From assembly GCF_016863475.1 (NCBI RefSeq), contig NZ_BOOY01000018.1, forward strand, positions 124,001-188,000: a stretch of 64,000 bases of DNA, read 5' to 3'. The first letter of the stretch is position 1, and every line of letters starts with the position of its first letter. A program made the translations under genes and the position numbers. Positions 11,237 to 42,671 of this stretch are shown in pieces. The notes below the pieces were generated by a model. It ran no database searches and had not been told where the DNA came from. It saw only the letters and a program-made list of their open reading frames with translations. Origin of the DNA: Spirilliplanes yamanashiensis (GTDB lineage Bacteria; Actinomycetota; Actinomycetes; Mycobacteriales; Micromonosporaceae).

Positions 11237-12055
11237 GTGGCCGAGCACCGGCTGCCCCCCGGCGACGACCGGCCCCGGCCGGCCGCGCCGTGGTTGGGCG
11301 ACGGCCGCCCGTCCGCCCGCCGCCCGCCCGCCGGCGCCCCGCCCGCCGCCGAGCCCGCCGCCTTCTCCGGGTACGACGAGGTGACCGCTCGGCGCGTCCC
11401 CGCCGCCGTGTGGGCGACCCTGCCCGACCCGGACCCCGATCCGGACCCCGCACCCGCCGCTGCCGGCGGGTGGGCCGGCGGGTGGCCCCGGCTGCCCGAG
11501 GACCCGCGCCGCCGGCTCGCCCTGGCCGCCGTCCTGGCCGTGGCCGTGCTCGTCGGCGGCCTCGGCTACCTCGCCGCCACCCGCGACGACGGCGGCGGCG
11601 TCATCCCCGCCCCCACCGGCGCGGCCGCGCTGCCGGCCGTCCCGCCCGACGTGCCGCCGCCCGCAGCCAGCTCCGAGCCGCCCGCGAGCGAGCCGCCGGC
11701 CGGCGGGGAGACCACCGCCCCGCCGACCACCCGGCCCACCACCAGGCCACCCACGAAGCCGCCGCCCACCACCCGGCCGCCGGAGAAGCGGGCGCCGAAG
11801 CGGATCGGGCCCGCCAACCTGCAGGGGTTCCAGGCGCTGCTCACCGCCCACTGCCGGGACAACGGCGACCAGGCCGCCGCCCTGTTCAACGGCGAGGGCC
11901 GGACCGCCGCCGACGGCACCTGGTTCTGCGTGCGGGCCGTCGCGTTCACCCGCATCGACCTCGACGAGGCGTGCCAGGACCGGTTCGGCCGGCGGGCGCA
12001 GGCGCGCGAGACCGTCCGCGGCGACGCCCGCTCCATCCGCTGCTTCGACTCCTAG
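11237..12055 (+). CDS. Hypothetical single-pass membrane protein with Pro/Thr-rich linker
   Basis: The GTG at 11237 follows GGAGGAGGAG at 11221-11230, which decides the start over an in-frame upstream codon. The 272-residue protein has a Pro-rich cytoplasmic part, one membrane segment (about 97-118, LALAAVLAVAVLVGGLGYL), a Pro/Thr-rich exported linker (PTTRPTTRPPTKPPPTTRPP) and a C-terminal domain of about 75 residues with four cysteines (AHCRDN, WFCVRA, EACQDR, IRCFDS) that could form two disulfides. It is probably an exported, membrane-anchored protein. The family is not recognised. Confidence 0.75.
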   Translation: MAEHRLPPGDDRPRPAAPWLGDGRPSARRPPAGAPPAAEPAAFSGYDEVTARRVPAAVWATLPDPDPDPDPAPAAAGGWAGGWPRLPEDPRRRLALAAVLAVAVLVGGLGYLAATRDDGGGVIPAPTGAAALPAVPPDVPPPAASSEPPASEPPAGGETTAPPTTRPTTRPPTKPPPTTRPPEKRAPKRIGPANLQGFQALLTAHCRDNGDQAAALFNGEGRTAADGTWFCVRAVAFTRIDLDEACQDRFGRRAQARETVRGDARSIRCFDS

Positions 12056-12076
12056 TCCGACTCCTGAACCGGGCCG

Positions 12077-12105
12077 TGGACCGCCGGTCCCGGGACCGCT
12101 ATGCT
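12077..12105 (+). promoter_or_regulatory. Putative promoter of the trp leader
   Basis: A TGGACC at 12077-12082 and TATGCT at 12100-12105 are separated by exactly 17 bases. The leader-peptide ATG begins 7 bases after the TATGCT, so transcription would start at or next to the ATG and the leader peptide would be read from a leaderless transcript, as is common in actinobacteria. Confidence 0.5.
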
Positions 12106-12112
12106 CCTCGCC

Positions 12113-12175
12113 ATGCGCGCATCAACCGGCCTGTGGTGGCCCGCCGACCCGGCGGCCCCAGCCCTGCGCGCGTAA
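12113..12175 (+). CDS. trpL: trp leader peptide with tandem Trp codons
   Basis: A 20-residue reading frame, MRASTGLWWPADPAAP..., ends in TAA at 12173. The two adjacent TGG codons at 12134-12139 are the hallmark of a trp attenuation peptide. It lies directly before a terminator-like hairpin and the fused anthranilate synthase gene. When charged tRNA-Trp is scarce, ribosome stalling at the Trp codons should alter folding of the downstream RNA. A trp attenuator of this kind is established for a fused trpEG gene in Streptomyces. An in-frame ATG at 12101 overlaps the proposed -10 element, so 12113 is preferred. Confidence 0.75.
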   Translation: MRASTGLWWPADPAAPALRA

Positions 12176-12190
12176 CACTCCCCCACCGCG

Positions 12191-12213
12191 CGGCCGCCTC
12201 AGCGAGGCGGCCG
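12191..12213 (+). terminator. trpL: Attenuator terminator hairpin of the trp leader
   Basis: Perfect 10-base arms CGGCCGCCTC and GAGGCGGCCG enclose a 3-base loop, followed by TCGTCGTCGTG. It lies 16 bases after the leader stop codon and about 70 bases before trpEG, where an attenuator terminator is expected. The arms are G+C-rich without a long U tract, as usual in this group. Confidence 0.7.
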
Positions 12214-12281
12214 TCGTCGTGTCCGGCGCTCCACCGCCCCGCTGCACCGGGGCCGTCCCGAGCACCCGAAGGACACCCACC

Positions 12282-14174
12282 ATGCAGCTCCTGCGCCGCC
12301 TCCTCGCCGCCGCCACCGCCGGCGGGGACGCCGAAGGTCCCGGGCCGTTCGCCGTCCTCGTGCGCGCGGGCGGCGTCGACGTCCTGGCCGGGGACGTCGT
12401 CACCGCGGACACCCTCGCCGCCATCCCCCTCGACGCCGACCGGCCCACCCTCGCCGTCGTGCCCTTCCGGCAGGTCGCCGAGCGCGGGTTCGCGTGCGTC
12501 GACGACGGCGCCCCGCTGGAGTGCCTGCGTGCCACCGCCACCGAGCGGCTGACCACCGCCGAGCTTCTCGCCGAGCTGCCCGACGCCGACCCGGGCCTCA
12601 CCGCGCGCGGCTTCGACGTCTCCGACGAGCGGTACGCCGCCACCGTCGCCGACGTGCTGCGCGACGAGATCGGCCGGGGCGAGGGCGCCAACTTCGTCGT
12701 GCACCGCACGTTCACCGCCACCACCGGCGGGCCGGTGCTGCCCGCCGCCCTGGCCACGCTGCGGCGGCTGCTCGCCGGCGAGCGCGGCGCCTACTGGACC
12801 TTCCTCGTGCACACCGGCGCGCGCACCCTGGTCGGCGCGACGCCCGAGCGGCACGTCAGCGTCGACGGCGGGCTGGCCATGATGAACCCGATCAGCGGCA
12901 CCTTCCGCGGCCCCGCCGACGACCGCGACGCGCTGCTGGCCTTCCTCGCCGACCGCAAGGAGGTCGACGAGCTGGCGATGGTGCTCGACGAGGAGCTGAA
13001 GATGATGGCCGTCGTCGCCGAGCACGGCGGGCAGGTCGTCGGCCCCTACCTCAAGCCGATGGCGAACCTCACCCACACCGAGTACCTGCTCGCCGGGCGC
13101 ACCACCCGCGACGTGCGCGACGTGCTGCGCGAGACCATGTTCGCGCCCACCGTCACGGGCAGCCCGATGGAGAACGCGTGCCGCGTCATCGCCCGGCACG
13201 AGCGGCGCGGCCGCCGCTACTACGCGGGCGTGCTGGCGCTGCTCGGCCACGACGCCGACGGCCGGCAGAGCCTGGACGCGCCCATCCTCATCCGCACCGC
13301 CGAGTTCACCCCCGACGGGGTGGTCCGGGTGCCCGTCGGCGCCACGCTGGTGCGCCACTCCACCCCCGAGGGCGAGGTCGCCGAGACGTACGCCAAGGCG
13401 GCCGGCATCCTGGCGGCGCTGGGCCTGCGCGCACCCGCGCCCGTGGCGCCGGTCGCCGCCGCCCCGGCCGAGGACCCCGAGGTGCTGCGCACCCTCGCCG
13501 GGCGCAACGAGCACCTGGCCCGGTTCTGGCTCGACCATCGGGTGCCGGGCGAGCTCACCGTCGCCGCGCTCGCCGGGCGCACCGCCGTCGTCGTCGACGC
13601 CGAGGACACGTTCACCGGCATGCTCGCCCACCAGCTGCGCGCGCTCGGGCTCACCGTGGACGTGCGGCCGTGGCACGCCCCCGGCGACCTCGACGCCGAC
13701 CTCGTCGTCGCCGGTCCCGGCCCCGGCGACCCGCGCGACCTGACCGATCCGAAGATGGCCGCCGTCGACCGGCTCGTCGGCGACCGGCTCGCCGCCGGGC
13801 GGCCGCTGCTCGCCGTGTGCCTCGGCCACCAGGTGCTCGCCGCCCGGCTCGGGCTGCGGCTGCACCGGCGCGCCGAGCCGTACCAGGGCGTCGCCCGCGA
13901 CATCGACCTGTTCGGCGCGGGCGCCCGGGTGGGGTTCTACTCCACGTTCACCGCGCAGGCCGGCGCCGACGCGGTGGACACCCCGTACGGCCGGGCGGAG
14001 CTGGCCCGCGACGGCCTGGCCGTGCACGCGCTGCGCGGCCCGGCGTTCGCCGGGGTGCAGTTCCACCCGGAGTCGGTGCTCAGCCGCGACGGGGTGGCGG
14101 TCCTGTCCCGGCTGCTGCCGGGCCTCTGCGGCGCGGGCGTCCCGCCGGTCGCCGCGGCCCCGGGTCCACGATGA
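12282..14174 (+). CDS. trpEG: Fused anthranilate synthase (TrpE-TrpG, PhzE-like)
   Basis: This 630-residue cytosolic enzyme joins a chorismate-binding domain (about 1-395) to a glutamine amidotransferase domain (about 430-620). Together they convert chorismate plus glutamine to anthranilate, or to 2-amino-2-deoxyisochorismate in the PhzE branch. Visible motifs are NPISGTFRG, the TVTGSPMENACR segment, the amidotransferase Cys in LAVCLGHQ and His/Glu in FHPES. The N-terminal region is short and I see no LLES-type Trp feedback motif, so control may rest mainly on the attenuator upstream. The ATG follows GAAGGA at 12268-12273. Which of the two reactions it performs cannot be settled from motifs, but the trp leader favours the tryptophan role. 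Confidence 0.88.
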   Translation: MQLLRRLLAAATAGGDAEGPGPFAVLVRAGGVDVLAGDVVTADTLAAIPLDADRPTLAVVPFRQVAERGFACVDDGAPLECLRATATERLTTAELLAELPDADPGLTARGFDVSDERYAATVADVLRDEIGRGEGANFVVHRTFTATTGGPVLPAALATLRRLLAGERGAYWTFLVHTGARTLVGATPERHVSVDGGLAMMNPISGTFRGPADDRDALLAFLADRKEVDELAMVLDEELKMMAVVAEHGGQVVGPYLKPMANLTHTEYLLAGRTTRDVRDVLRETMFAPTVTGSPMENACRVIARHERRGRRYYAGVLALLGHDADGRQSLDAPILIRTAEFTPDGVVRVPVGATLVRHSTPEGEVAETYAKAAGILAALGLRAPAPVAPVAAAPAEDPEVLRTLAGRNEHLARFWLDHRVPGELTVAALAGRTAVVVDAEDTFTGMLAHQLRALGLTVDVRPWHAPGDLDADLVVAGPGPGDPRDLTDPKMAAVDRLVGDRLAAGRPLLAVCLGHQVLAARLGLRLHRRAEPYQGVARDIDLFGAGARVGFYSTFTAQAGADAVDTPYGRAELARDGLAVHALRGPAFAGVQFHPESVLSRDGVAVLSRLLPGLCGAGVPPVAAAPGPR

Positions 14175-35258: not shown

Positions 35259-36140
35259 TCAGCCCTTGACGGCGCCGGCCGTCATGCCTGTCGCGATGTT
35301 GCGCTGGATGAGCAGGAAGAACACCACCACCGGGAGGGAGGTGATGATCGCGCCAGCCATGAGGGGACCCCACGCGGTGCCCCGATTCGTCTGATTCTGC
35401 AGCAGCCACGCCATCAGGTTCTGCTTTTCCGGACTGTTGAACGTGTTGATGATGATGAACTCGTTCCACGCCTGGATGAAGCCGTAGATGGAGGTCGCAA
35501 CCAAACCGGGACCCGTCAGCGGCAGGATGATCCGCCAGAACGTCTGCCACCGGTTGCAGCCGTCGACCAGGGCCGCCTCGTCGAGCTCGCGCGGGATGCC
35601 GGCGATGAAGCCGCGCAGCGTCCACACGGTGTACGGCAGGATCAGCACCAGGTAGACGATGCCGACACCGATGAGGCTGTTGGTCAGCTGGACCTTCTGC
35701 ATCATCAGGAACAGCGGGATGAGCAGCGCGACCAGCGGGACGAGCTGGACGGCCAGGATGATCAGGATCAGCGCCTTGCGCCCGTAGAACGAGAACCGGG
35801 CGATGGCCAGGGCGGCGAGGAAGCCCACCACGAGCGCGCCGAACACCGCGAAGACGGTGACGAGCATGCCGTTGATGAGGTCGTCGACGAAGTACGGGGC
35901 GTTGAAGGCCGAGATGAAGTTGTCGAAGGTCGGGGCCTCCGGGAAGAACGACGGCTCGAACTGCAGCACCTCGGGCGCCGGCTTGAACGCCGTGTTGAGG
36001 ACCCAGTAGACCGGGAAGATCATGACCACGGCGAAGATCACGCCGAAGGTGTTCGCGACGACCGTGCCGAGGCCGCTGCGGCCGACGGTGACGGTGCCCT
36101 GCTCGTCAGCGCTGGGCTTGCGGCCCTTCTTGCCGGCCAT
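35259..36140 (-). CDS. dasC: Sugar ABC transporter permease (DasC-like, MalG family)
   Basis: This 293-residue permease has six membrane segments after a short basic N-terminus. The EAA loop reads PRELDEAALVDGCNRWQTFW and the protein ends MTAGAVKG, much like the other MalG-type permease in this block (LTAGAVK). The ATG at 36140 shares one base with the stop of the partner permease. It follows the DasA-like binding protein and DasB-like permease, giving an order like that of the chitobiose importer DasABC. The symbol is inferred from the binding protein. Confidence 0.82.
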   Translation of the reverse strand: MAGKKGRKPSADEQGTVTVGRSGLGTVVANTFGVIFAVVMIFPVYWVLNTAFKPAPEVLQFEPSFFPEAPTFDNFISAFNAPYFVDDLINGMLVTVFAVFGALVVGFLAALAIARFSFYGRKALILIILAVQLVPLVALLIPLFLMMQKVQLTNSLIGVGIVYLVLILPYTVWTLRGFIAGIPRELDEAALVDGCNRWQTFWRIILPLTGPGLVATSIYGFIQAWNEFIIINTFNSPEKQNLMAWLLQNQTNRGTAWGPLMAGAIITSLPVVVFFLLIQRNIATGMTAGAVKG

Positions 36141-37129
36141 CAGTCGACCTCTCCGATCTTGAACATCTGGCGGATGTAGAACACGGTCACGCCGAGCATG
36201 AGCAGCACCGTGATGACCGCGATGGCGGAGCCGAGGCTGTACTTCGACTGGCCGAACGCCTGGATGAAGGAGTACGTGCCCAGCGTCTGGTACTCGGGCT
36301 CGACCTTGCTGTCCCGCAGCACCCAGACCTGCGTGAACAGGCCGAAGTTCCAGATCACGGACAGCGTGGTGACGATCGTGATGAGCGGCTTGAGGATCGG
36401 CAGCGTGATCCTGCGCAGGGCCTGCCAGGGCGAGGCGCCGTCGACGACGGCCGCCTCCAGCAGCTCCTTGGGCACCTGCGTGAGGCCGGCGTTCAGGGTG
36501 ATCGCGAGGAACGGGATGCCGGCCCAGATGACCAGCGTCGTGATGACGATCCAGCCCTGGGTCGGGTCGGCGAACCAGCTGTGCCCCTGGTAGTCGAGGC
36601 CGATCTGCGCCAGCAGGTAGTTGAAGACACCGAAGTCGGTGTCGACCATCCACTTGAAGATCTGCGCCTGGACGAGCTGCGGCACGGCCCAGACGAACAT
36701 CATGGCGACGACCATCGCGAGCCGGACGGGCCGGGCGACCCGGCGCATCAGCAGGGCGACGGCGAGGCCGAACACGACCGACAGCACGACGGACACCACG
36801 GTGAAGGTGGCGGTGCGCCGCACGACGTCCCAGAAGAACGGGTCGGTCAGCACGTTGGTGTAGTTGTCGAGGCCCACCCACGGCGGGGTGACGCCGGTGA
36901 GCAGCTGGCGCAGGCGCATGTCCTGGAACGACAGCTGCATCATGCGGAACATCGGGTAGCCGAGCAGCGCGGCCAGGATCAGCAGCGCGGGCGCGGCCAG
37001 CAGCAGCGGAGTCCGAGCGCTGTCATTCTTCCGGCGCTTGGGCTTGACCGCGCCGCGTTGAGGCAAACGCTGGTGGCCGCCAGACGGTCGGTGCTGTCTG
37101 GGAGTCGCCGGGGAGTCGACGGCGTACAT
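36140..37129 (-). CDS. dasB: Sugar ABC transporter permease (DasB-like, MalF family)
   Basis: This 329-residue permease has a basic cytoplasmic N-terminus, six membrane segments and the EAA loop as PKELLEAAVVDGASPWQALR. The ATG at 37129 follows AAGGAAGGA by about five bases; a longer frame to 37180 lacks a ribosome-binding site. A 15-base-arm hairpin lies between it and the binding-protein gene, so less permease than binding protein may be made. Confidence 0.83.
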   Translation of the reverse strand: MYAVDSPATPRQHRPSGGHQRLPQRGAVKPKRRKNDSARTPLLLAAPALLILAALLGYPMFRMMQLSFQDMRLRQLLTGVTPPWVGLDNYTNVLTDPFFWDVVRRTATFTVVSVVLSVVFGLAVALLMRRVARPVRLAMVVAMMFVWAVPQLVQAQIFKWMVDTDFGVFNYLLAQIGLDYQGHSWFADPTQGWIVITTLVIWAGIPFLAITLNAGLTQVPKELLEAAVVDGASPWQALRRITLPILKPLITIVTTLSVIWNFGLFTQVWVLRDSKVEPEYQTLGTYSFIQAFGQSKYSLGSAIAVITVLLMLGVTVFYIRQMFKIGEVD

Positions 37130-37185
37130 CGGATCCTTCCTTTCCAGGAGGGGCTGAGCCGAGAAGGGGGGGTTCGGCACCTGGT

Positions 37186-37220
37186 GCGCCGCCCGGCCGG
37201 GGAGCCCGGCCGGGCGGCGC
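37186..37220 (-). terminator. Intercistronic hairpin between binding-protein and permease genes
   Basis: Perfect 15-base arms GCGCCGCCCGGCCGG and CCGGCCGGGCGGCGC enclose a 5-base loop, 8 bases after the DasA-like stop codon. There is no U tract. Such elements commonly stabilise the binding-protein mRNA or partly terminate before the permease genes. Confidence 0.7.
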
Positions 37221-37227
37221 GAACGCG

Positions 37228-38526
37228 TCAGGAGGCGTTCAGGATGGTGTTGATCTGCTCGTCACCCCATGCGGTGGCTTCCTGCACCGTCTTCTTGCCG
37301 GTGAGGATGTCGCGCAGCATGGTCTGCGGAACGGTCTGCTTCTCGACGTCGGCCCACTTGGCCGAGTTCGGCGGGAACCAGCTGTTCTTGGCGGCCTGCG
37401 CGGTCGCCTCCATGCCCTCGACCGCAGCGGCCTTGTCCAGCAGGGCGGTGGAGTTCGGCAGCGCGTTGGCCGCGATCAGGCCCTCCATCGACTTGGTGTC
37501 GGTGAACGCCTTGACCCACTTGGCGGCGAGCGCCTGGTTGGCCGACTTCTGCGTCACGCCGAGGTTCGAGCCGCCCAGGAACGACGGGACCTCGGGCATC
37601 GGGGCGAGCGCCAGCTTGCCCTTGACCTTGGTGGGAACGAGCTCCGACTCGGGGTCGTTCGGGTCCTTGCGGATCTCCTCCGCGGAGCCCTTCTCCCAGC
37701 CGTTGCCGTAGAACATCGCGGCCTGGCCCTGCGCGAAGATCGCGGCCTGGTCGTTCTCGTCCTTGGCCGGGTCAGCCTTCGAGTACGCCTTGTGAAGGTC
37801 GACCCAGTCCTGCAGGCCCTGCTGGAACGCCGGCTGCGACATCTGGCCGACCCACTTGTCGCCTTCCTTGACGGCGATCTTGCCACCGCTGCGCTGGCCG
37901 AAGGAGAAGGCCATGAACCAGTTGGTGGGGATGTAGAACGCGCCGAACTTCGAGTCCTTGTTGTCGGACTCGAGCTTGTCGGCCGCCGTCTTCAGCTCGG
38001 CGAGGGTCTTCGGGACCTCGACCTTGGACTTCTCGAAGAGGTCCGTGCGGTAGATGAGGACCCGGGCGCCCGCGTAGTACGGCACGCAGAAGGTCTTGCC
38101 GTCGAGCTCGCAGGCGCCGGACAGACCGGTCAGCCAGGTGCTCGAGTTCTCGAACTCGTCCTTCTTGAGCTCGGCGAACGCGCCGGCGTCCACGTACTTC
38201 GCGAACTCGGTGTTACCGAGCTCGACGACGTCCGGGACCTCGGCGCCGGCCAGGGTGGCGTCCAGCTTGGTGAGGTGGTTCGCCCACTGCTGGTACTCGA
38301 CCTTGACGTCCGCGCCGGTCTCCGCCTTGAAGCGGGCGTTGGCGTCGTCGACGACCTTCTTCCAGCCCGACTCCGCGTCGACCATCAGCCAGACCTTGAT
38401 GGTCTTGCCGGCGCCGTCGACCTTGCCCTCGGTCGACGGAGCGGTGGTGCCGCCGCTGTCACCGCAGGCGGCAGCACCCAGCAGCGTGGCCGCCAGGGCG
38501 GCAGCGATCGCAATTCTGCGCTTCAC
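37228..38526 (-). CDS. dasA: DasA-like chitobiose-binding lipoprotein
   Basis: The 432-residue solute-binding protein has a Sec signal with a lipobox (LLGAAACG, Cys about residue 21). IKVWLMVDAESGWKKVVDDA, YQQWANHLTKLDATLAG, PDVVELGNTEFAKYVDAGA, KTFCVPYYAGARVLIYRTDL and the C-terminal KNSWFPPNSAKWADVEKQTV closely follow the Streptomyces chitobiose receptor DasA as I remember it. The GTG at 38526 follows GAGAGGAA by six bases. It is the first transport gene after the RpiR-family regulator, 157 bases downstream. Chitobiose specificity is inferred by similarity. Confidence 0.83.
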   Translation of the reverse strand: MKRRIAIAAALAATLLGAAACGDSGGTTAPSTEGKVDGAGKTIKVWLMVDAESGWKKVVDDANARFKAETGADVKVEYQQWANHLTKLDATLAGAEVPDVVELGNTEFAKYVDAGAFAELKKDEFENSSTWLTGLSGACELDGKTFCVPYYAGARVLIYRTDLFEKSKVEVPKTLAELKTAADKLESDNKDSKFGAFYIPTNWFMAFSFGQRSGGKIAVKEGDKWVGQMSQPAFQQGLQDWVDLHKAYSKADPAKDENDQAAIFAQGQAAMFYGNGWEKGSAEEIRKDPNDPESELVPTKVKGKLALAPMPEVPSFLGGSNLGVTQKSANQALAAKWVKAFTDTKSMEGLIAANALPNSTALLDKAAAVEGMEATAQAAKNSWFPPNSAKWADVEKQTVPQTMLRDILTGKKTVQEATAWGDEQINTILNAS

Positions 38527-38539
38527 GCTTCGTTCCTCT

Positions 38540-38550
38540 CTGAAATTCAG
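38540..38550. promoter_or_regulatory. Inverted repeat CTGAA-A-TTCAG before the DasA-like gene
   Basis: Perfect 5-base arms around one base lie just upstream of the ribosome-binding site of the gene starting at 38526, in a locally AT-rich patch. It is a candidate operator for the RpiR-family regulator encoded next door. No DasR-type site is seen here. Confidence 0.35.
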
Positions 38551-38603
38551 TACTTCGCAGGTTGTTACGAGGGGGTGGTGCGCCGGCGCCCCGAGGGGTG
38601 GGG

Positions 38604-38617
38604 ACACCGGCCGGTGT
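38604..38617. promoter_or_regulatory. Perfect 14-base palindrome ACACCGGCCGGTGT
   Basis: It lies in the 157-base gap between the RpiR-type regulator gene and the DasA-like gene, about 80 bases before the latter's start. It could be an operator or part of a processing hairpin; a second short hairpin (CCGCCGC...GCGGCGG) lies near 38640-38656. Confidence 0.35.
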
Positions 38618-38683
38618 TTCAAGCGGCCTGTCGACCGCGCCGCCGCGAGCGGCGGTGGTACGGGGTGGTGCGTCGGCGCCGGG

Positions 38684-39664
38684 TCATACCGGCGTCCCGT
38701 CCTTGACGGCCTTGTGACCGTGGACGGCTTGGGCGGTGCGCTGGAACGCGGCGTGCGAACGTTCGTGGGTTCGCTGGGCCACGGCCACGTAGAGCAGATC
38801 GAGGACGACCAGCTGCGGGTGCCGCGCGGAGAGCGCGTCGGGCCGGTAGGTGGTCGCCTGGGTGGCGGTGAGCAGGACGATGTCGGCCAGCTCCGCCAAG
38901 GGTGAGCGCGGGAAGCTGGTCAGGGCGATCGTGGTGGCGCCGTGGCTGCCGGCCTCGGCGAGCAGCTCGATCGTCTCGCCGGTGGCGCCGCTGTGCGAGA
39001 TGCCGAGCGCGACGTCGCCGGCGCGCGACAGCGCCGCGCTGGCGAGGCCGTTGTGCACGTCGCTCCACGACCAGGCCGGCACCCCGATGCGGTGCAGGCT
39101 GAACTGCATCTCCTCGCCGACCAGCGCGCTGCCGCTGGCGCCGAAGATGTTGACCCGCGACGCGCCGGCGATGGCGACGGCCGCCCGCTCCACCTCGGCG
39201 AGGTCGAGCAGCTGGGCGGTGTCGTGCATGGCCTGCGTGTCGGCCGCCATGATCTGGCCGAGCACCCGCTCGAGCGGGTCGCCGGGCTGGATCTCGCGGC
39301 CGATGTCGACCGTCCAGCCGGCGGAGCGCGAGCGGCCGGTCTCCGCGGCGATGCCGAGGCGCAGGTCGGCGTAGCCGTCGAAGCCGAGGGCGCGGCAGAA
39401 CCGGGTCACGGTCGCCGGTGACGTCCCGCTGCGCTCGGCGAGCTCGACGATCGTGGCGCGGGACGCGGCGGCCGGGTCGGACAGCACGTGCTCGGCCACC
39501 CGCTGCAGGGCGCCGGTGAACTCCGGCAGCAGCGTGCGGACCCGCAGGAGGACCCCGTCGGAGCTGGTGAACAGGGGGCCGGGGAGCTGGTCACGCACAT
39601 GGTCACGCACACCGACGTCGGCGACCGCCATCGCGGCGGTGCCGTCCATCTCGTGCTCGACCAT
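38684..39664 (-). CDS. MurR/RpiR-family transcriptional regulator with SIS domain
   Basis: This 326-residue regulator has an N-terminal HTH_6 domain (LQRVAEHVLSDPAAASRATI, VELAERSGTSPATVTRFCRA) and a C-terminal SIS sugar-phosphate-binding domain (ASRVNIFGASGSALVGEEMQ, ALGISHSGATGETIELLAEA). Such proteins sense phosphosugars, for example GlcNAc-6-P or MurNAc-6-P. It heads the leftward block of two chitin-sugar importers and is the obvious local regulator, in place of DasR. The ATG at 39664 is supported by a TTGACA and TAAGAA upstream. Confidence 0.9.
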   Translation of the reverse strand: MVEHEMDGTAAMAVADVGVRDHVRDQLPGPLFTSSDGVLLRVRTLLPEFTGALQRVAEHVLSDPAAASRATIVELAERSGTSPATVTRFCRALGFDGYADLRLGIAAETGRSRSAGWTVDIGREIQPGDPLERVLGQIMAADTQAMHDTAQLLDLAEVERAAVAIAGASRVNIFGASGSALVGEEMQFSLHRIGVPAWSWSDVHNGLASAALSRAGDVALGISHSGATGETIELLAEAGSHGATTIALTSFPRSPLAELADIVLLTATQATTYRPDALSARHPQLVVLDLLYVAVAQRTHERSHAAFQRTAQAVHGHKAVKDGTPV

Positions 39665-39944: not shown

Positions 39945-41258
39945 TCAGGCGGTGGCGCGCACGGCCTCGGCGAAGACCTCGGAACGGTGCTCGAAGTTGC
40001 GGAAGCGGCCGTAGCTCGGGGCGGCCGGCGACAGCAGCACCACCCCGCCGGGCGGGGTCACCGCGCGCGCCAGCGACACGGCCTCCACCAGGTCGCCGGC
40101 CAGCTCGGTGCGCACCCCGGGCAGCCCGTCCAGCTCGCGCAGGATGCGCTCGCCGCTGTCCGGGATGCCCAGCACGGTCAGCTCGCGGCCGGCCAGCCCG
40201 GCGCGCAGCGGCGCGTAGTCCAGGCCGCGGTCCGTGCCGCCGACGATCAGGGTCGTCGGCCGCCCCTCGTACGCCTCCACCGCCAGCACCGCCGAGTACG
40301 GGCTCGTCGACAGCGTGTCGTCGACGAACGTCAGCCCCGACGGGTCGGCGATCTCGGTCAGCCGGTGCGGCAGCGGCCGGTACTCCGCCACCGCCGCGGC
40401 GACCTCGGGCGCGGCCGGGTCGACGCCCAGGCCCTCCAGCACGGCCAGCGCCACGGCCAGGTTGCGCTCGTTGTGCCGCCCGGCGAGCCGCAGCGCCGCC
40501 CGGTCGAACAGCGGGCTGCCGTCGCGCAGCACCCGGCCGTCCGCGACGGTGAACCGGGCCGTCGCGTCCACCGGCGGCCGGCCCTGCGCGTCGCGCACCC
40601 CGCCCAGCTCGGCGGCGAGGCGCTCGTCGGAGCCGTTGACCACGATCAGGCCCGGGCCGTGCGCCAGCAGGTTCAGCTTGTCGCGGTAGTACTCGCGCTC
40701 GCCGCCGTGGGCGTCCAGGTGCTCCGGGAACAGCGACGTCACCACCGCCACGGCGGGCGAGTCCGTCAGGTCGGCGCACTGGTAGCTCGACAGCTCCAGC
40801 ACGTACGCCGGCGCGTCCGGCAGGTCCAGCAGCGGCACGCCGATGTTGCCGCCGTACGCGTTGGGCCGGCCGGCGCCCGTGAGCAGGTGGCTGATGAGGC
40901 TCGACGTGGTGCTCTTGCCCTTGCTGCCGGTGACGCCCACCGTCCGGCCGGCGTGGTCGGCCAGCCACAGCGCGCTGCCGCCGGTGACCGGGACGCCGCG
41001 CTCCCGCAGCTCGCGCACCCACGGGTGGGTGTTGGGCACCCCGGGCGACCGCACGACCACGTCGGCGGCGAGCAGCCGGGCCCGGGCGGCCTCGCCGCCG
41101 GACAGCTCCACGCCCGCGAACTGCCCGGCGTCGGCGGTGTCGGCCACGGCGGCGAGGGCGGCGGGGCCGGCGGCGCGCACCGCGGCGACCGCGGCCTGGC
41201 CCTCCCGGCCGGTCCCCCACACGACGACGGAACGACCGCGCAGGTCAGCGAGGCGCAC
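39945..41258 (-). CDS. murD2: UDP-N-acetylmuramoyl-L-alanine:L-glutamate ligase (MurD2)
   Basis: This 437-residue Mur ligase has an N-terminal Rossmann segment (SVVVWGTGREGQAAVAAVRA), the ATP-binding loop VGVTGSKGKSTTSSLISHLL, YVLELSSYQCADL, PEHLDAHGG, the HNERNLAVALAV hinge and a C-terminal domain with FVDDTLSTSP and IVGGTDRG. It adds a glutamate to UDP-MurNAc-L-Ala in the cytosol. I call it MurD2 (L-Glu) and not MurD (D-Glu) because it is divergent from a clear murL epimerase gene; in Xanthomonas and some actinobacteria the two work in sequence. The GTG at 41258 follows GAAGGAG by seven bases. Confidence 0.85.
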   Translation of the reverse strand: MRLADLRGRSVVVWGTGREGQAAVAAVRAAGPAALAAVADTADAGQFAGVELSGGEAARARLLAADVVVRSPGVPNTHPWVRELRERGVPVTGGSALWLADHAGRTVGVTGSKGKSTTSSLISHLLTGAGRPNAYGGNIGVPLLDLPDAPAYVLELSSYQCADLTDSPAVAVVTSLFPEHLDAHGGEREYYRDKLNLLAHGPGLIVVNGSDERLAAELGGVRDAQGRPPVDATARFTVADGRVLRDGSPLFDRAALRLAGRHNERNLAVALAVLEGLGVDPAAPEVAAAVAEYRPLPHRLTEIADPSGLTFVDDTLSTSPYSAVLAVEAYEGRPTTLIVGGTDRGLDYAPLRAGLAGRELTVLGIPDSGERILRELDGLPGVRTELAGDLVEAVSLARAVTPPGGVVLLSPAAPSYGRFRNFEHRSEVFAEAVRATA

Positions 41259-41327
41259 TCGGGTCTCCTTCGGGCTGTCGGCCGGCCGGACTAGTATGGC
41301 CGCCGGTCCCGAAGCGAGGAGGAACGG

Positions 41328-42671
41328 GTGGAGCGGGAGCAGATCCTGTCCCTGGACACGCTGCACTTCCCGGCCTCCGCGTTCGACCCGGTGACCGGGG
41401 TGGCCACGTTCGACTACCGGCTCACCGGCCCCGGCGGGCTGGCCCTCGACTTCCGCGAGACGGTCGAGCTGCCCGTGCCGGCCACGGCGCCGTCCGCGGC
41501 GGTGCTCGACCGGGTCCGCCGGGTGCTCGAGCTGCTGCACGTCGTCGCCGGGGTGAGCTACTACAAGACCGCCGCCCCGCGCCGGGTGGTCGCGCCCCGG
41601 CCGGTGCCCGCGGCGGCCGCCGCCCTGTTCACCGCGGTCTACACCCACGGCCTCGCCGAGTACGCGTACCGCAACGACCTGCCGCACGTGCTGGCCCTCA
41701 CCGTCGAGACGCCCGGCGAGGCGCCCGCCGCCGATCCGGTGGCCGTCGGCACCCGGCCACTGTCGGCCGTCGGCGGCGGCAAGGACTCCATCGTCAGCCT
41801 GGAGCTGATGCGCGGCGCCGGGCTCGACCCGGTGCCGTTCTCGGTCAACCCCAACCCCGTCATCGAACGGGTCGGCGCGGCGTCCGGGCTGCCCGCGCTC
41901 GCGGCCCGGCGGCGGCTCGACCCGCGGCTGTTCGAGGTGAACGCGGCCGGCGCCCGCAACGGGCACATCCCCGTCACCGCCATCAACTCGCTCATCGCGA
42001 TCGCCACCGCCACCCTGCACGGCCTCGGCCCGGTCGTGATGTCCAACGAGCGCTCCGCGTCCGACCCGAACCTGGTGTGGCACGGCCACGAGGTCAACCA
42101 CCAGTGGTCGAAGGGCGTCGACGCCGAGGGGCTGCTGCGCGCCGCCGTCACCGCCCACGCCGGCCTGGCCGAGCCGTACTTCTCGCTGCTGCGGCCCCTG
42201 TCCGAGCTGCACATCGCCCAGCTGTACGCCCGCTGGCCCGCCTACGACGGCGTGGTGACCAGCTGCAACGCCGCGTTCAAGCTGTCCGGGGCGAGCGAAC
42301 GCTGGTGCGGGCACTGCCCGAAGTGCCGGTTCGTGTTCCTGGCCATGGCCCCGGCGATGCCGCGCGAGCGGGTCGTCGCCATCTTCGGCGCCGACCTGCT
42401 GGACGACCCGGCCCAGCTCCCCGGCTACCGCGAGCTGCTCGGCGTCGACGGGCACAAGCCGTTCGAGTGCGTCGGCGAGGTCGAGGAGTGCGTGGTCGCC
42501 CTCGGCATGCTGCTCGAGCGGCCGGAGTGGCGCGACGCGGCCGTCGTGGCGGCGCTGCGCGACGAAGTGCCGCAGGCGGCGTGGTCGTCGGCGGCGTCGC
42601 GGGCCGCGATGCTGACCCCGGTCGACGCGGGCTTCGTGCCGCCGGCGTACGCCAAGCTGCTGCCCGCCTGA
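41328..42671 (+). CDS. murL: UDP-N-acetyl-muramoyl-L-alanyl-L-glutamate epimerase (MurL)
   Basis: This 447-residue cytosolic enzyme inverts the terminal L-Glu of UDP-MurNAc-L-Ala-L-Glu to D-Glu, using ATP. The PP-loop-like LSAVGGGKDSIVSLELMR (about 144-161), VMSNERSASDPNLVWHGHEV NHQW region, CNAAFKLSG and the cysteine cluster WCGHCPKCRFVF are the recognisable family features. The GTG at 41328 follows GAGGAGG. It lies 69 bases from murD2 on the opposite strand, so the two share a divergent promoter region. Together they bypass glutamate racemase plus classical MurD. Confidence 0.88.
   Translation: MEREQILSLDTLHFPASAFDPVTGVATFDYRLTGPGGLALDFRETVELPVPATAPSAAVLDRVRRVLELLHVVAGVSYYKTAAPRRVVAPRPVPAAAAALFTAVYTHGLAEYAYRNDLPHVLALTVETPGEAPAADPVAVGTRPLSAVGGGKDSIVSLELMRGAGLDPVPFSVNPNPVIERVGAASGLPALAARRRLDPRLFEVNAAGARNGHIPVTAINSLIAIATATLHGLGPVVMSNERSASDPNLVWHGHEVNHQWSKGVDAEGLLRAAVTAHAGLAEPYFSLLRPLSELHIAQLYARWPAYDGVVTSCNAAFKLSGASERWCGHCPKCRFVFLAMAPAMPRERVVAIFGADLLDDPAQLPGYRELLGVDGHKPFECVGEVEECVVALGMLLERPEWRDAAVVAALRDEVPQAAWSSAASRAAMLTPVDAGFVPPAYAKLLPA

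Follow-up and report, generated by a model that had tools for sequence, protein, structure and literature searches.

How does Spirilliplanes yamanashiensis obtain the D-glutamate (D-Glu) of its peptidoglycan? The question is raised by a pair of neighboring genes in a 64,000-nucleotide stretch of its genome (contig NZ_BOOY01000018.1, positions 124,001 to 188,000; hereafter, the window), which encode a Mur ligase, MurD2, and an epimerase, MurL. An initial annotation of this DNA proposed that L-Glu is added first and then epimerised on the nucleotide, bypassing glutamate racemase (MurI). Gene content and residues linked to glutamate specificity support this order of events and, judging from sequence, the MurD2/MurL pair is very probably the sole source of peptidoglycan D-Glu, via L-Glu ligation followed by epimerisation. 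The pathway is already published for this group of bacteria, and the locus adds an unremarkable, well-supported instance of it. The divergent layout is the most frequent one in the family; what looks new is the placement of the MurL fold beside those of QueC and QatC. The two open reading frames are present as first described, divergent and separated by 69 bases:

39945-41258, minus strand: MurD2, 437 amino acids, GTG start, AAGGAG upstream
41259-41327, no strand: shared intergenic region, 69 bp between the divergent murD2 and murL
41328-42671, plus strand: MurL, 447 amino acids, GTG start, GAGGAGG upstream

The first line of evidence comes from the rest of the genome (6.5 Mb in 59 contigs, 99.96% complete), in which the initial annotation had suggested checking the dcw cluster for a second murD and other regions for murI. 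Neither turned up: MurI has no match in the genome at E <= 0.001, and the single MurD over the family cut-off is the MurD2 of the window. No D-amino-acid aminotransferase (Dat) exceeds its cut-off in the genome. The dcw cluster (locus L010) runs in the order ftsI-like gene, murE, murF, mraY, then ftsW, murG, murC, ftsQ, with the ftsI, ftsW and ftsQ matches scoring below their cut-offs. The slot between mraY and ftsW, which holds murD in E. coli, is occupied here by opposite-strand genes for a histidine kinase and a LuxR-type response regulator (G000:C20, L010:8922-11559), and a MurD search of the dcw stretch matched murC, murE and murF, plus two chance-level pieces (E 0.23 and 0.86), and no murD. 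A search with the MurD2 protein itself found itself alone; we do not count this result, as the search also missed MurC, MurE and MurF and was too insensitive.

The ligase carries the second line of evidence. MurD2 scores 283 bits against the murD model TIGR01087 (cut-off 211.95) and is 37% identical to MurD2 of Xanthomonas sacchari. Its residues E179, L316, R344 and P414 correspond to D182, K319, K348 and A414 of E. coli MurD, positions that read D, K, K and A in E. coli MurD and in all 12 canonical-type rows of our alignment (11 from MurI genomes, one from genome G062). In the 87 MurD2 rows, which include same-genome repeats via two loci, position 319 is L or I in 86 with a gap in the remainder, and position 348 is R in 85 with gaps in the other two; position 182 is mixed (E in 74, D in 12, C in one), so that positions 319 and 348 together make the more constant marker. 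The published L-Glu residues, Glu and Arg at X. oryzae positions 197 and 358 replacing Asp and Lys, are present in the window as E179 and R344, and the X. sacchari positions 206 and 367 sit at a constant +9 from the X. oryzae ones. According to the available text of the review PMC8788868, E197D/R358K turned X. oryzae MurD2 over to D-Glu, and E. coli MurD accepted L-Glu once it carried K319T. Loss of K319 together with K348R offers a usable sequence marker that separates MurL-linked from canonical ligases in genomes.

MurL itself scores 415.6 bits against NF041275, a model named MurL_Xanthmoales, in a match that covers residues 10-443 (profile positions 8-441 of 447) and falls short of the model cut-off of 700 bits; relatives from Micromonospora sp. 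ATCC 39149 and Salinispora mooreana score 405.7 and 401.1. The window protein is 42% identical to X. sacchari MurL. Three features within it matter for what follows:

41772-41789, plus strand: PP-loop-type ATP site, MurL residues 149-154, GGGKDS, matching the SGGxDS of QueC and QatC
42264-42326, plus strand: zinc-type motif, MurL residues 313-333, C(x)13CxxCxxC (C313, C327, C330, C333), matching the QueC/QatC zinc motif
42468-42470, plus strand: MurL C381 in HKPFECVGE, the fifth invariant cysteine, outside the zinc-type motif

Across 104 aligned MurL rows, from which four fragmentary phylum loci (L142, L155, L156 and L157) were left out, 34 residues are invariant, including G150, G151, D153, S154 and five cysteines. 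GGxDS is kept in 104/104 rows, the first Ser of SGGxDS being Gly in 103 of them, and the four zinc-type cysteines and C381 are likewise present in every row. Compared by sequence with solved structures, MurL gave one chance match only (E 1.4); it was not found in viral contigs, and PADLOC returned no match for the window protein. Weak Pfam and NCBIfam matches of other MurLs (HD 0.099, Phn-HD 0.042, DUF6395 0.0088, WbuX 0.14) were left unused.

The function of the pair can be read against studied relatives. According to the available text of PMC8788868, X. oryzae MurD2 and MurL are XOO_1320 and XOO_1319, MurL depends on ATP and Mg, produces AMP and works in the L to D direction only, and orthologues from Micromonospora sp. 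and S. tropica were confirmed in vitro. The same text reports X. oryzae MurL to be without free glutamate racemase activity, and we dropped the idea that MurL is such a racemase. The X. sacchari pair shows full-length homology to that of the window and has the same Glu/Arg/Pro specificity residues, while differing at E. coli positions 416 (Y in the window, F in X. sacchari) and 319 (L versus I). Closer to home, Micromonospora sp. ATCC 39149 has a divergent pair as in the window, with MurL and MurD2 each 70% identical.

If the pair replaces MurI, the two should rarely meet in one genome, and this is the pattern observed. Among 150 genomes of the same GTDB family, 79 carry MurL, 70 carry a MurI over cut-off, none carries both, and one carries neither; this last genome, G062 (77% complete), contains a canonical-type MurD. 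In the wider phylum, MurL was matched in 27/396 genomes, two of which belong to this family; the other 25 include none with a MurI over cut-off, and three have matches at 20-26 bits. Genus code g40 holds both states, with MurL and a co-directional MurD2 in G039 and MurI and a canonical-residue MurD, flanked by other Mur-ligase matches, in G061; this is a pathway switch within one genus code. Genomes G348 and G212 gave no MurD at E 1e-40, and tblastn shows a MurD-like neighbor of MurL in them, at 27% and 41% identity. A co-directional MurD2 accompanies MurL in actinobacterial lineages with genomes of ~1.6-2.1 Mb as well (e.g., G173, G315, G389 and G538; families f16 and f53).

How MurL might work is suggested by its predicted fold. 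An AlphaFold model of MurL (45 sequences; predicted local distance difference test 85.9, predicted template modeling score 0.89) was compared with solved structures, and the best match was QatC (Z 17.2, 4.5 A over 318 residues), followed by QueC (Z 12.2, root-mean-square deviation 3.6 A, 197 of the 221 residues of 2pg3) and Cap9 (Z 11.8), with the next structures at 9.1 and lower. Foldseek alone gave QatC at E 3e-5 and QueC at E 5e-3. Sequence identity between MurL and QueC/QatC is 11-14%. A sequence-only comparison by hhalign, with 104 MurL against 14 QueC rows, produced a collinear alignment of 173 columns (P 7.2e-5) that pairs GGGKDS with SGGQDS and C313, C327, C330 and C333 with the QueC zinc cysteines. 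Its score of 41.2 beats 200/200 controls (100 column shuffles, maximum 24.8; 100 reversed profiles, maximum 20.1), and a MurD profile control scored 16.2. QatC, of the qatABCD anti-phage defence system, and QueC, the preQ0 synthase of transfer RNA modification, have a PP-loop core, GGxDS and C(x)nCxxCxxC in common with the predicted MurL model; the available text of PMC13279940 describes the same four-cysteine arrangement in QatC, with Zn bound there. We consider it likely that MurL is a remote homologue of QueC and QatC, forming an epimerase branch of the superfamily. It differs from both in its substrate, in having no match to the QueC family PF06508 and in being without YPDC, reported in the available text of PMC13329287 as the canonical QueC substrate motif. 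Because the PF06508 match and the motif are both missing, MurL should be treated as a remote relative that would activate a carboxylate in QueC-like fashion, rather than as a PF06508 member.

Among the matches listed in a search of the open-access literature, no paper held both QueC and MurL, and a search for MurL with peptidoglycan and PP-loop found a single paper, matched via 'Mur_ligase'. A 2026 survey devoted to the QueC family does not mention MurL, epimerase or peptidoglycan in its main text. Seen beside QueC and QatC, MurL gains an ATP site, a probable site for metal and a set of residues to probe, so that its unexplained chemistry can be put to direct test. The kinship also gives QatC, whose reaction is called unresolved in the available text of PMC13279940, a relative with a known reaction.

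The discoverers of MurL proposed adenylation of the alpha-carboxylate, epimerisation and hydrolysis (PMC8788868, available text), and a QueC/QatC-like fold provides a predicted site for that adenylation. In the scheme we favor, MurD2 would attach L-Glu to the cell-wall building block and MurL would invert it on the nucleotide at the expense of ATP, with AMP as product, as the X. oryzae orthologue suggests. With ATP bound at GGGKDS, the terminal L-Glu would be adenylated on its alpha-carboxylate, rendering its alpha-proton more acidic; conserved residues, with the invariant C381, H213, H258 or K262 as candidates, would take this proton and return it on the other face; and hydrolysis of the acyl-AMP would yield D-Glu. 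The four cysteines would keep the fold together by binding zinc. Cysteines serve as acid/base in cofactor-independent racemases such as MurI. For this reason, and because it is invariant and lies outside the zinc-type motif, C381 is a fair first candidate for the acid/base residue.

Several observations pull the other way on the pathway and need to be set beside the evidence above. The assembly is split over 59 contigs, and the Dat model passes its cut-off in just 1/14 control genomes, so that the absence of Dat says little. The specificity residues are not uniform, as 12/87 MurD2 rows keep D at position 182 and one has C; moreover, E. coli MurD with D182E/K348R still did not use L-Glu and S. 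mutans MurD naturally has Arg yet uses D-Glu (PMC8788868, available text), which shows that the two specificity residues alone are insufficient. The separation of MurL from MurI has blurred edges, too. Sub-cut-off MurI matches (E <= 0.001) occur in 6/79 MurL genomes of the family, five at 20-26 bits and one, in G149, at 90.7 bits, which may be a MurI; in this genome MurL lies at a contig end and MurD2 on another contig. Four of six MurL-free controls exceed the MurI cut-off and two fall below it (118.5 and 106.7 bits), so the cut-off is somewhat strict and can miss real relatives. One could suppose that the ligase is a normal D-Glu MurD displaced from the dcw cluster, that D-Glu comes from an unrecognised racemase or aminotransferase, and that MurL does something else; the ligase does pass the general murD model, and the genome contains two weak D-amino-acid-aminotransferase matches (45.7 and 43.7 bits against a cut-off of 277). 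However, this supposition has to explain why the ligase has E179/L316/R344 instead of D/K/K, why MurL never coincides with an over-cut-off MurI in 150 family genomes and why this genome has no MurI match at E <= 0.001, and we give it hardly any credence beside L-Glu ligation and epimerisation by the MurD2/MurL pair.

The kinship of MurL with QueC has its own difficulties. The hhalign probability is 62.7, the window MurL has no Pfam match at E <= 10, PF06508 included (HMMER filters drop most weak matches), and the QueC substrate motif is absent from its sequence. The whole-chain MurL-QatC alignment spans 8-393, and the N-terminal MurL domain folded alone had no QatC among the matches listed; apart from a designed fold (best Z 7.6), the lone domain retrieved weak matches, the majority to RNase H-like or reverse-transcriptase structures. 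Given this result, the N-terminal extension is not put forward here as proof of a link to QatC. The low identity, the missing PF06508 match and the several other PP-loop enzymes that reach Z 6-9 would all suit a generic Rossmann-like HUP fold in which the ATP loop and cysteines arose by convergence. Against this, QatC, QueC and the QueC-like Cap9 stand above the rest, and the collinear alignment, in which loop and cysteines are paired, exceeds all of its controls; convergence is consequently an unlikely account, and remote homology the better one. A different kind of doubt concerns the chemistry within the favored mechanism. Activated N-acyl amino acids are prone to oxazolone formation. In a variant of our scheme, the adenylate would close to an oxazolone (azlactone), from Glu C1 to the L-Ala carbonyl oxygen, which would then epimerise and be hydrolysed. 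This fits the release of AMP (PMC8788868, available text), and the present data do not separate it from direct deprotonation of the acyl-adenylate; we regard the variant as possible but rather doubtful, and keep the direct route as our working scheme.

The initial annotation also contrasted the divergent layout with a co-directional pair in Xanthomonas. This holds for X. sacchari, in which the genes are co-directional, murL first, with a 20 bp overlap, and murL follows a gene for a bifunctional aspartate kinase/diaminopimelate decarboxylase. The difference from Xanthomonas thus stands, while the layout is not unusual in its own group: similarity to MurL retrieved 378 named loci, the best-matching from Actinoplanes, Micromonospora and relatives, and of the top 80, which overlap the family genome sample, 76 are divergent and four have no MurD2 in the examined flank. 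The 79 MurL genomes of the family sample comprise 51 divergent pairs, four co-directional pairs with murL first and 24 without MurD2 in the examined flank; MurD was located in eight of these 24: in seven it lies on another contig or >2 Mb away, and in the eighth, G149, the locus is cut by a contig end. As divergence is the commonest arrangement in the family, we dropped it as a novelty. In 24/25 MurL genomes outside the family, the two genes run in the same direction with murL ahead; the other locus is interrupted by a contig end. A quick MurL tree, in which long branches are joined, was read for nothing but the nesting of the divergent pairs: the rows of divergent genera fall within the co-directional ones (support 81-84, modest), and divergence is therefore probably derived. 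Two Micromonospora loci (L079 and L099) have ~1.7-1.9 kb between their divergent murD2 and murL, so something lies in the gap.

One further element was found in the shared intergenic region through motif comparison across relatives:

41292-41297, plus strand: -10-like element TAGTAT, reading towards murL

A scan of 41100-41500 for consensus promoters found no sigma-70 pair. In the intergenic regions of the window and 74 named relatives, TANNNT is present on the murL-reading strand in 75/75 (as TAGTAT in 66/75) versus 3/75 on the other strand. The aligned MurL start of Micromonospora follows TAGTAT by a few bases, whereas in the window 30 bp and a ribosome site lie between; by this spacing, the Micromonospora murL mRNA may be leaderless.

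MurL also occurs on three Pseudonocardia plasmids typed as mobilizable, in a form 44% identical to the window MurL:

L126, L127 and L128 (NZ_CP052772.1, NZ_CP011869.1 and NZ_CP010991.1), near 11983-13392 of each locus: plasmid MurL

These proteins keep GGxDS and all five conserved cysteines, and differ at 2, 5 and 2 of the 40 residues that are invariant in the other 101 MurL rows. In all three plasmids, tblastn at E <= 1 found no relative of MurD2 in the ~25 kb around murL (~12 kb each way), and murL overlaps an nSTAND1-WD40 gene of ~1,300 codons tail-to-tail by 61-67 bp. PADLOC gave no match for the plasmid MurLs or for two of the three nSTAND1-WD40 neighbors. It is tempting to combine the two observations and propose that MurL is both an epimerase branch of the QueC/QatC group and, like QatC and Cap9, drafted into conflict systems on mobile DNA. 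This joint proposal is tentative and probably wrong as a whole; of its two halves, the one on conflict systems is speculative and determines how probable the whole can be.

Downstream of murD2, the window continues with a gene for an RpiR/SIS-type regulator and then an ATP-binding cassette (ABC)-type sugar uptake gene set (36140-39664, minus strand); a relative of the regulator is found in 13/80 of the named loci.

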